DNA of 64,000 nt from assembly GCA_944342025.1 (NCBI GenBank), contig CALVMD010000002.1, forward strand, positions 1-64,000, in the 5' to 3' direction. Source of the DNA: an uncultured Clostridia bacterium. GTDB lineage: Bacteria; Bacillota; Clostridia; Christensenellales; Borkfalkiaceae. The position numbers were made by a program, and so were the translations under genes. The notes under the pieces were generated by a model that saw nothing but the letters and a program-made list of their open reading frames with translations, searched no databases and was not told the origin of the DNA. This document shows, in pieces, positions 47,209-49,490 of this stretch (the first letter of the stretch is position 1; each line of letters opens with the position of its first letter).

Positions 47209-47919
47209 CTACTGCCCGTCTTCTCCGCTGTTCCCCATATTGCGGTCCTCGCCGTTTCCTCTGTTATTTCCCTCGGACGGTCCGTCCGTATCTTTTCTCT
47301 CATCCTCTCCGCGCGGCGACATTTCGCCGAAAACCTCGTCTACGTCGTCGCGATAACCTGTCCCGCGCACGCTTTTTCCGCCTTTCGCTCCGCCGCTGCG
47401 GTCCACTTTCGAAACATAAAAATTTACAAGCAGCTGTGCCTTTCGCATCAGCCAATCGTACAGAATGAACAGAGCCGCGCCGCCGACGATCAAAATGGGA
47501 TACGCCCAGACCTCCAGCCATTCGTACGCGACCTGAAACAGATTGCTGAACAGCGCCCACGACGCGCACAGCATTCCGACAAACCACGCTGCCTTGACCG
47601 CCCATGCGACCCACTTATTGATCCTCCACTTTTCCTGAAAAGAGTTGACGAGCGGATGCAATCCGAAAAAGACGATGAACGGAAACAATTTATAGAACAT
47701 CGCAATGCCGCCGAACGGCAGGCATAAAAGCGCCGTTGCGACATAAGCCAAAAACCCGCCCGCGCGGAAATTTTTGGCAAGGGGCAGCATGAGCGCGATT
47801 TCCGCAAAAATGTACCCCGAAATGAGGATAAAGCTCACGTTCATGCCGATCGCCATGAACACGGTCGCCAATGCGCACGAGAGCGCGGCAAGGGCGATCG
47901 AAAAAGATTTCTTTTTCAT
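47209..47919 (-). CDS. unrecognised multi-pass membrane protein with acidic tail
   Basis: 236 aa. About five to six hydrophobic helices in residues 5-165, resembling ECF-transporter S components or DUF2232-type proteins in outline only. A cytoplasmic tail of about 65 residues rich in Gly, Asp, Glu and Arg (GEMSPRGEDERKDTDGPSEG) follows. Start at the ATG 47919 or 47925; no clear ribosome-binding site. It begins 32 bases after the J-like gene in the same direction, so it probably belongs to the same unit. Confidence 0.75.
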   Translation of the reverse strand: MKKKSFSIALAALSCALATVFMAIGMNVSFILISGYIFAEIALMLPLAKNFRAGGFLAYVATALLCLPFGGIAMFYKLFPFIVFFGLHPLVNSFQEKWRINKWVAWAVKAAWFVGMLCASWALFSNLFQVAYEWLEVWAYPILIVGGAALFILYDWLMRKAQLLVNFYVSKVDRSGGAKGGKSVRGTGYRDDVDEVFGEMSPRGEDERKDTDGPSEGNNRGNGEDRNMGNSGEDGQ

Positions 47920-47950
47920 GATCATTTGTGCGCAAAGCGCCGGATGCGGA

Positions 47951-48589
47951 CTATCTGCAGCCGCAGCAAGCGTTCATAAAGCAATTCAGGCACATATTGC
48001 AGGCACAACAAGTCGCGCACTGTTCGCACAGTCCTCCGCCGCCCATCTGCTGATTTTCATAATCGGGCTGGGCGCCCGCATTGCCCTGCGCCTCTTGGGC
48101 GCCGCCCTGCGTTGTTTCGGCCTTCTTTTTGTCATACTCGATTTTTTCTTTGAGTTTATTGTAAGAAGTCCTGTATTTTTCGTTGGACGGATCCATCTGC
48201 ATGGCGATCTCGAGCTGTTTTTTGCTCTCGTTCATCCAGTTTTTGCGATAGAACACGACCGATTGCAGGTAATGCCATTCCGCAGGGCGCTCGTTGAACT
48301 CATCGAGCGCGGACTGAGCCTCGGCAAATTTGCCCTCGCGGATAAGCTGATCCACTTTGTTATACGCAGATCCCATATCGCCCGTCGCCCGACGCTCGCT
48401 GCGCTCAGACATGATCTCATTATACGCCACGTCGATGCGGTTGAGCATTTTTGCGGCTTCATTGCCCGCCTCGCCTTCCAAAAATCTGTCTTCTGAATAT
48501 TTCTTTTTGAGAGCATTGTACCGTTCGGTGATCTGCTCGTCGGTCATCTCTTCGGTGACGCCCAAAAGCTCGTAATATTTATTGTTCAT
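47951..48589 (-). CDS. J-domain-like / TPR protein with Cys-rich C-terminus, HPD missing
   Basis: 212 aa. Residues 1-70 look like a J-domain (YYELLGVTEEMTDEQITERYNALKK), but the diagnostic HPD is absent, so it should not stimulate Hsp70 normally. Residues about 75-150 form TPR-like helices (GKFAEAQSALDEFNERPAEW and KKQLEIAMQMDPSNEKYR). After a Gln/Gly linker the last 26 residues hold nine cysteines (LCEQCATCCACNMCLNCF, then NACCGC), suggesting metal or Fe-S binding or palmitoylation-like anchoring. It sits between a DUF5685 gene and a membrane protein gene. Confidence 0.82.
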   Translation of the reverse strand: MNNKYYELLGVTEEMTDEQITERYNALKKKYSEDRFLEGEAGNEAAKMLNRIDVAYNEIMSERSERRATGDMGSAYNKVDQLIREGKFAEAQSALDEFNERPAEWHYLQSVVFYRKNWMNESKKQLEIAMQMDPSNEKYRTSYNKLKEKIEYDKKKAETTQGGAQEAQGNAGAQPDYENQQMGGGGLCEQCATCCACNMCLNCFMNACCGCR

Positions 48590-48611: not shown

Positions 48612-49490
48612 TTATCTGAGTTTTATTTTTGTCGGTTTGACCTTTTTATGACACCCGCAGGTGACGCGCTTTGTCGCAGCAGGCAACCCCCGTAAGATGA
48701 TATTGTCCGTCAGGTCTCGGTTGAAATAGAACTTTATGTTTTTCAGACTTTCCGCATTTTCCGCGAACACGCTCTTGAACACGAAATCCACTTCTTCCGC
48801 GTTCTTTTCCAGCATTTTTTCGCGTACAGATTCGCCGAACGCGGCATAAAACGGATTATAATTTTTCTTTTTTACGTCTTTATCGTAATCGTCCAGCGCG
48901 TCGATGAGGTATACCCATTTCCCGATCCCGTAAAAGAGATCGCGCGTATATTGCGTCGCAAACTCTTCGCCCAAACAATAATCGGACAGGTCCGCGATCA
49001 TCATGCCGAACGGATCCGCCGCCCTGTCGAGGCTGGCGCAGTTTTCCTTTTCCAATTTTCTGAGATGTTCCATATGCCGCGCGATGATCTCTGCCGCACG
49101 AGGATGCAGCGCTTTGGCTTTTTTGAATCCTTTTTTGAAAAAAGAGCGGGAAAATCTGCCCTTGTTTTCATCTTCGATGTCATCGGTCAGTTTATAATAG
49201 GTGAGCGCCGTATTCAGACAGGCGACGGTACGCGTGATGTCGTCGTCGTCTGCGATCGGGCGCTTTACGAACGGATGCGCGGCACAGCGCCGGCTTTTGA
49301 TCGTAACGTCGGTATTCTTTATATTGTGCAGCAGGGCCGACAAAAATGTCATGTCATACGAAAGAGCCAGCCTGGCCGTCTGCCCGCAGCAGCGCCCGAT
49401 GCTCTTGCACAGGCCGCAATACATCGCCTTGTATAAGAGCCCGTCTTTCACGTACATATAGGGAATATCCGGTTGGATATAGCCGAACAT
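48612..49490 (-). CDS. DUF5685 family protein, with Asp-rich motifs like a class I isoprenoid synthase
   Basis: 292 aa, predicted all-helical. N-terminal YCGLCKSIGRCCG (Cys 25, 28, 34, 35) and C-terminal CGCH (278-281). Two aspartate-rich motifs, DDIED at 103-107 and DALDDYDKD at 197-205, lie on likely helices about 95 residues apart. That is the arrangement by which squalene/phytoene-synthase-type enzymes bind Mg-diphosphate. The resemblance is my inference from motifs; DUF5685 has no assigned function that I know. The start at 49490 uses the GGAG located at the end of trpS. Confidence 0.85.
   Translation of the reverse strand: MFGYIQPDIPYMYVKDGLLYKAMYCGLCKSIGRCCGQTARLALSYDMTFLSALLHNIKNTDVTIKSRRCAAHPFVKRPIADDDDITRTVACLNTALTYYKLTDDIEDENKGRFSRSFFKKGFKKAKALHPRAAEIIARHMEHLRKLEKENCASLDRAADPFGMMIADLSDYCLGEEFATQYTRDLFYGIGKWVYLIDALDDYDKDVKKKNYNPFYAAFGESVREKMLEKNAEEVDFVFKSVFAENAESLKNIKFYFNRDLTDNIILRGLPAATKRVTCGCHKKVKPTKIKLR

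Follow-up and report, generated by a model that had tools for sequence, protein, structure and literature searches.

A conserved operon encodes DUF5685, a protein family with a predicted isoprenoid synthase fold, and a cysteine-tailed J/TPR protein

The DNA considered here is a window of 64,000 nucleotides from an uncultured Clostridia bacterium (contig CALVMD010000002.1 of assembly GCA_944342025.1). Its reverse strand carries a gene of the DUF5685 family (PF18937; E 3.8e-74, 249.9 bits), with a coding frame at 48615-49490 and a stop codon at 48612-48614. The initial annotation, made from the sequence alone, had read this gene as a DUF5685 protein of about 290 aa with two aspartate-rich motifs, and the positions that it gave for both motifs are exact. 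A J-like protein with a TPR-like part and a cysteine tail is encoded immediately downstream, followed by an integral membrane protein (Table 1). The DnaJ score of the J-like partner, 26.6 bits, lies narrowly below the cut-off of 27.8, and its match to the HMM of the TPR+tail family has an E-value of 1.2e-19. No RNA structure was found at the junction between the DUF5685 and J genes (z -0.18).

Table 1. Coordinates of the features of the operon in the window and of the PF00348 subfamily genes in divergent loci
Feature	Position	Strand	Remark
DUF5685 (PF18937) gene, 292 aa	48612..49490	-	isoprenoid-synthase fold predicted
CGLC, residues 25-28, invariant Cys pair, first helix	49407..49418	-	putative metal site with C69/H72
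CAAH, residues 69-72, on predicted beta hairpin	49275..49286	-	C69 in 151/152 relatives, H72 in 112/152
Asp motif I (DDIED at residues 103-107), DxxxD across the family	49170..49184	-	closes predicted helix 84-108
Asp motif II (DALDDYDKD at residues 197-205), DxxxDxxxD across the family	48876..48902	-	end of predicted helix 180-200, into 202-207
Gene for J-like domain, TPR-like part and cysteine tail, 212 aa; HPD replaced by SED	47951..48589	-	DnaJ E 6.5e-6
Cys-rich C-terminal tail of partner, 10 Cys in last 25 residues	47954..48028	-	tail conserved in relatives
Gene for integral membrane protein, divergent within the RibU-like family (ECF S-component fold)	47209..47925	-	family HMM E 2.2e-42
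PF00348 subfamily members	L162:8599-9561, L164:4959-6140, L166:252-1310, L167:5118-6167		L165 in two pieces

Both Asp motifs are conserved across DUF5685. A first alignment held 71 sequences (the window protein and 70 from the same class), and conservation was counted over the 152 relatives that remained of 180 after a 90% identity filter. D103, D197 and D201 are found in all 152, D107 in 150 and D205 in 131, the remaining 21 having N at position 205; the five Asp are present together in 129 relatives. Conservation of this order in the alignment is not due to chance. The second D of DDIED, D104, is kept in just 65 relatives, so that motif I is best described as DxxxD. Other core positions include G3, Y24 and E147 (151 each) and G190 (152), and, around motif II, Y194 (152), A198 (146) and N212 (151). 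Where four N-terminal cysteines had been claimed, the window protein has six up to residue 91 (25, 28, 34, 35, 69 and 91); three of them, C25, C28 and C69, are conserved in 151 relatives each, with one gap. A C-terminal CGCH that had also been pointed out is indeed present, at residues 278-281, but it is variable in the family, C278 being found in 11 of the 152.

An AlphaFold model of DUF5685, built from a 66-sequence alignment, has a pLDDT of 94.2 and a pTM of 0.91. When it was compared with the PDB by Foldseek, the best 50 of 478 matches (E <= 10) were all isoprenoid synthases by title, with probabilities of 0.99-1.00, the titles 'ACP-HEPS2' and 'PcIDS1' being taken as their names suggest. 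MoeN5 comes first among these 50, followed by heptaprenyl, octaprenyl, geranylgeranyl and related diphosphate synthases. Their E-values, 2.3e-3 to 4.9e-2 with none <= 1e-3, and their TM scores by query length, 0.40-0.60, are modest and point to a distant match; other folds are absent among the best 50 of 478. In the model, three helices separate the helix closed by motif I from that closed by motif II, an arrangement that fits the canonical order of isoprenoid synthases. The isoprenoid synthase bundle proposed in the initial annotation is thus recovered in the prediction, although the protein is not all-helical as had been claimed: a beta hairpin at residues 64-80 (strands 64-69 and 72-80), which bears C69 and H72, is a feature beyond the canonical bundle. 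Sequence searches do not place the family. DUF5685 is the sole Pfam match of the window protein at E <= 1 and at E <= 10, with no profile of a known superfamily; no isoprenoid synthase family is found among 25 of the 64 Pfam families matched by 66 DUF5685 members, and a sequence-profile search of the PDB gave 9 matches at E <= 10, of which 0 are isoprenoid synthases and several are designed helical proteins. The predicted fold and the conserved Asp motifs together support the placement of DUF5685 in the class I isoprenoid synthase superfamily, as a family not previously recognised.

The initial annotation had gone further and proposed the head-to-head, squalene/phytoene type of synthase (SQS/PSY). 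This subtype is not supported by the data: SQS/PSY enzymes are missing from the best 50 of 478 fold matches, PF00494 has no match in the window protein or anywhere in the window genome, and the hhalign P-value is 0.015. DUF5685 profiles were compared with sets of SQS/PSY (3, then 14 sequences), PF00348 (25) and DUF2600 (20), and the P-value against SQS/PSY moved from 0.0017 with 3 sequences to 0.015 with 14. In the comparison with 71 DUF5685 sequences, run alongside 18 control families, the isoprenoid sets reached P 0.0017-0.0065, as against 0.014 for the best control, the J partner, and at least 0.056 for the other 17. With 180 DUF5685 sequences and four of these controls, the J partner (P 0.0098) outscored the isoprenoid sets (0.015, 0.027 and 0.1). 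Since larger sets erase the gap between isoprenoid families and controls, the profiles are not used here as evidence of membership.

At the level of the motifs, DUF5685 resembles two groups of enzymes in part. Like MoeN5 and the long-chain trans-prenyl diphosphate synthases of PF00348, which are the closest in fold among the best 50 of 478 matches, it has two Asp motifs; unlike them, it has no PF00348 match, carries DxxxDxxxD in place of DDxxD, and has the added Cys-bearing beta hairpin. It resembles SQS/PSY in the DxxxD of motif I and in motif II, whose acidic residues form an i, i+4, i+8 triad; YNP comes next, in the place of the Y-x-P of SQS/PSY, and a low-stringency hhalign alignment with the 14-sequence set (P 0.015) puts both motifs in register. 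The triad reads D-x3-D-x3-D against N-x3-D-x3-D in three SQS/PSY sequences, thus opening with D rather than N, it is preceded by Y rather than Q, and the profile match is non-significant. Such a triad differs from the DDxxD of chain-elongating enzymes. In terpene synthases, a motif of the triad type holds a metal of the same diphosphate. A triad of this type would suit the ionisation of one prenyl diphosphate for a non-diphosphate acceptor.

The genomic context was surveyed in 131 loci of at least 7 kb, reduced to 122 by dereplication at 85% DUF5685 identity, a sample in which many related genomes remain. A J/TPR partner lies next to DUF5685 on the same strand in 114 of the 122 loci, and an integral membrane gene comes third in 89, all among these 114 (92 by profile). 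A member of the third-gene family (L088:5838-6386) was modelled, and its first five Foldseek matches are ECF S-components, with the title TmRibU in four cases (probability 0.97-1.00, E 0.06-0.34), a fold that differs from that obtained for DUF5685 run in the same way. DUF5685 thus opens a conserved operon with a Cys-tailed J/TPR protein and a RibU-like membrane protein. The initial annotation had linked the gene both to trpS and to the Cys-rich J-like protein. The latter link proved to be the important one; a trpS homologue is near in only 4 of the 122 loci, and this association is local and incidental. A link to rlmD, found in 2 of the 122 loci, was likewise set aside as local.

Within the partner, the DnaJ profile is found in 36 and the TPR_2 profile in 30 of the 37 proteins scanned, and HPD is present in 107 of 116. 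At least 4 Cys lie within the last 45 residues in 113 of the 116; the final residue is Cys in 88, and 78 end in CC. A typical tail reads C-x2-C-x2-L-x-C-A-D-x-C-C-E-C-x-G-G-D-L-I-x-C-C. The J domain is absent and the tail kept in three loci (L163, L168 and L169), and in genus g103 (L265-L268, L273) the partner is a TPR+tail frame of 134-155 aa that lacks a J domain and lies about 9-19 kb from DUF5685 in four genomes and on another contig in G146. As judged from these sequences, what stays constant in the partner is the tail rather than the J domain. The 8 of 122 loci that have no match to the TPR+tail profile are of several kinds. For L050 the tail gene lies elsewhere in the same genome (L269), and in L162 the DUF5685 frame itself carries a Cys-rich tail extension. 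A different small Cys-tailed protein is found in the cluster in L164, L165 and L167, and one of the same kind was found for L166 in L288. Finally, L171 has a partial DUF5685 with an internal stop, and in L089 the contig ends 174 bases after DUF5685.

Two other accounts of the tail were considered and rejected. The end of the gene that encodes the tail is overlapped in another frame by the third gene in 15 of 113 tails (e.g. L266:15258-15288 and L078:2672-2729). For most loci, such overlap was discarded as the cause of the conserved tail, as 64 of 75 tails of the GGDxIxCC type have no overlapping third ORF, including 8 with no third gene in the fetched stretch. Trp was discarded as the acceptor, being present in the last 25 residues of just 50 of 113 tails; Cys is the constant feature.

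The distribution of the two families largely coincides. In the class to which the window belongs, 159 of 291 sampled genomes have DUF5685 at E <= 0.001, with 157 above the cut-off. It is also found in 33 of 299 genomes of the phylum and, of 14 named control genomes, in that of Thermotoga maritima alone. Among the 291 class genomes, with the tail called at E <= 1e-9, 144 have both DUF5685 and the TPR+tail family, 15 DUF5685 only, 4 the tail only and 128 neither; Fisher values for this co-occurrence ignore phylogeny. The four tail-only genomes comprise two that are 61-65% complete, one (G090) whose match covers positions 2-78 of 112 and stops short of the tail, and one (G233) with a poor tail. 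On the DUF5685 side, three genomes that are 99-100% complete (G024, G051 and G262) have no match to the tail family, and no Cys-tailed frame within the 3.7-3.9 kb around the gene. In two further loci, L295 (G003) and L296 (G123), the N-terminal part of DUF5685 is missing, the first match being at profile position 78, and the gene is probably disrupted; L295 also has extra sequence inside the frame.

Taken together, these observations lead to a tentative preferred reading, to which a probability of roughly 0.38 is given: DUF5685 would act on a prenyl diphosphate in a Mg-dependent manner and attach the lipid to the cysteine tail of its partner. Mg2+ would be held by the Asp motifs, which would ionise a single allylic prenyl diphosphate; the prenyl group would then pass to a Cys of the C-terminal string and tether the partner, as a co-chaperone that recruits Hsp70, to the membrane, in analogy to the lipidated cysteine string protein. 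The C25/C28/C69 site may bind a metal, either in a structural role or in activating the acceptor thiol, and may lie far from the Asp motifs. The two halves of this reading differ in strength: Mg2+-diphosphate chemistry is quite probable, and prenyl transfer to the tail is a more speculative step that may well prove wrong. The constancy of the tail where the J domain is lost, the co-occurrence of DUF5685 and tail, and the frequent Cys or CC ends count for lipidation of the tail. The three nearly complete genomes with DUF5685 and no tail family count against the tail as substrate, and the modest Foldseek E-values and non-significant profile comparison also weigh against the reading.

A somewhat unlikely alternative is that DUF5685 is a small-molecule prenyl or terpene synthase, acting by head-to-head or another condensation. 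The J/Hsp70 partner would then be a folding chaperone dedicated to it, comparable to the DnaJ-zinc-finger protein ORANGE, which plant phytoene synthase requires. Both Asp motifs are intact, which is also the case in enzymes that take two diphosphate substrates, the spacing of motif II and the register of the low-stringency alignment recall SQS/PSY, and prenyl diphosphate synthases make up most of the best 50 of 478 fold matches; moreover, Hsp70 is near DUF5685 in 6 of the 122 loci and an ispH homologue in 13, the latter possibly through shared synteny. However, SQS/PSY enzymes are themselves missing from those 50 matches, the 122 neighbourhoods contain no homologue of SQS/PSY, DUF2600, UppS, ispD or ispF at the thresholds used, and the conservation of the partner sits in its Cys tail rather than in the J domain. 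In one locus (L146:9953-12100), the ispH near DUF5685 is a fusion with S1 domains, Pfam recognising both LytB and S1.

The strongest contextual evidence tying DUF5685 to isoprenoid chemistry is a ComQ-like neighbour. A PF00348 homologue occurs in 5 of the 122 neighbourhoods (L162 and L164-L167), all within a group of nine divergent loci from outside the class. All five proteins have an intact first Asp motif and NDxNN as the second, while among the 29 readable of 30 ordinary PF00348 homologues from class genomes the second motif is DDxxD in 28 and DDxxN in 1. These proteins, which also have a conserved C-terminal WFW, form an undescribed PF00348 subfamily. Three of the five loci contain Hsp70 (two Hsp70 genes each in L164 and L167, L167 having GrpE as well), which was not found within the stretch in L162 and L165. 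Taken together, L288 and L166 (G343) give the order GrpE, Hsp70, small Cys-tailed protein, unknown, PF00348 and a DUF2232-type membrane protein; some unrelated genes come next, and then DUF5685 on the opposite strand. The divergent clusters have a DUF2232-type membrane protein in place of the RibU-like gene (one member tested). ComQ has only the second Asp of its second motif left; it prenylates a peptide encoded alongside and needs its first motif (PMC5331326). In the lineages of the five divergent loci, DUF5685 thus belongs to one cluster with a Cys-tailed protein and a probable prenyltransferase whose acceptor is not a diphosphate, accompanied by Hsp70 in three of them.

The ComQ-like family is found in 6 of 299 phylum genomes, 5 of which have DUF5685, a hypergeometric value of 6.8e-5 that is partly circular, as four of the six genomes supplied the query and the fifth was an already known neighbour. 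In the sixth (G555, 87% complete), DUF5685 was not found, and the ComQ-like gene is flanked by Hsp70 and a membrane gene; its contig has 3,280 bases. Such a second enzyme could itself be the catalyst, DUF5685 then having the fold but no transferase activity and binding, sensing or delivering a prenyl diphosphate within a membrane chaperone complex that includes the RibU-like protein, where its role would be regulatory or that of a scaffold. Precedent for a non-catalytic partner exists in the small subunit of a heteromeric prenyl synthase, but that subunit has no Asp motif (PMC7839719), whereas DUF5685 keeps its motifs. In addition, the ComQ-like family was found in 0 of 291 class genomes at E <= 1e-60 (a search with no positive control shown), 159 of which have DUF5685. 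A purely non-catalytic role is improbable.

The cysteines lend themselves to yet another interpretation, as a Cys-rich tail could equally bind metal. The operon would then serve metal or Fe-S handling by the tail and by C25/C28/C69, with the fold recruited for another diphosphate or for a structural role. J proteins serve Fe-S assembly elsewhere, and the Cys triad is invariant. In one locus (L266:7182-11937), DUF5685 and the TPR+Cys-tail gene are separated by SUF genes, of which a SufBD-domain and a class V aminotransferase gene were identified by Pfam and the rest by eye; in Pusillibacter faecalis, RseC lies upstream. This explanation is nevertheless improbable: it leaves the two conserved Asp motifs and the ComQ-like neighbour unexplained, and a SUF neighbourhood was identified in a single locus.

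For the preferred reading, lipidation of the tail by DUF5685, several known systems offer partial parallels. ComQ and PalQ also have an isoprenoid synthase fold and are encoded beside a protein with a candidate acceptor C-terminus (PMC5331326, PMC10853753). The degeneracy of the second motif is shared with ComQ by the PF00348 neighbour of the five divergent loci and not by DUF5685, which retains both Asp motifs, and this intact motif II counts against a peptide prenyltransferase of the ComQ type. So does the acceptor: all characterised trans-IDS-like peptide prenyltransferases target Trp, according to a 2026 review (PMC13290415), and enzymes known to act on peptides thus speak against S-prenylation of a tail in which Trp is inconstant. 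A likeness by motif pattern alone is offered by the UbiA membrane prenyltransferases, whose NDxxDxxxD and DxxxD (PMC7839719) resemble motifs II and I of DUF5685; their acceptor is aromatic and not a diphosphate, and unlike DUF5685 they are membrane-embedded. The partner, for its part, recalls by analogy only the cysteine string protein (CSP alpha, DNAJC5), which combines a J domain with a Cys string and is palmitoylated and membrane-bound (PMC10903463); the bacterial partner differs in having TPR and in carrying the string at its extreme C-terminus.

The source of an allylic donor also bears on the proposal. PF00348 is found in 29 of 31 class genomes and UppS in 6 of 6 genomes examined, including G000, G213, G005 and G124. 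PF00348 was not found in the window genome (G000, 78% complete) or in a 98%-complete relative (G213), both of which have DUF5685, and this counts against the preferred reading. The idea that DUF5685 generally stands in for an absent FPP synthase was rejected, PF00348 being absent also from G005 and G124, which both lack DUF5685. UppS without a detectable PF00348 trans-prenyl synthase is thus the situation in three genomes that are 98-100% complete (G213, G005 and G124), and the same holds for G000.

In its most extended form, the proposal becomes one of bacterial cysteine S-prenylation. DUF5685, joined in certain lineages by a second enzyme of ComQ-like type, would prenylate the C-terminal cysteine string of the J/TPR protein, and the modified tail would anchor an Hsp70-recruiting co-chaperone to the membrane, as in lipidated cysteine string protein. 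This would be a counterpart of that protein made by enzymes unrelated to eukaryotic protein prenyltransferases, a scenario that is attractive but doubtful. Should DUF5685 be an isoprenoid enzyme, Clostridia would have a widespread isoprenoid function that has escaped notice. Should the Cys tail be its substrate, bacterial protein S-prenylation would proceed by a new route, and trans-IDS-like prenyltransferases would reach beyond Trp, the target of all those characterised (PMC13290415). In the open-licence PMC literature, DUF5685 was found in one paper, as a name in a list, and no mention of PF18937 was found. Open-licence PMC titles and abstract beginnings gave no report of a prenylated bacterial cysteine-string J protein or of bacterial S-prenylation by an isoprenoid synthase fold. 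New here are the conserved operon of DUF5685 with the Cys-tailed J/TPR and RibU-like proteins, and the ComQ-like neighbour in five divergent loci.

Finally, one locus outside the 122 (L239, NZ_AP023421.1, Pusillibacter faecalis) has ispD and ispF about 5 kb upstream. Its DUF5685 and J-domain genes are carried by an element of 504 kb that is recorded as a conjugative plasmid. Besides ispD and ispF, this element also has cdaA and core genes, def, fmt and gmk among them.
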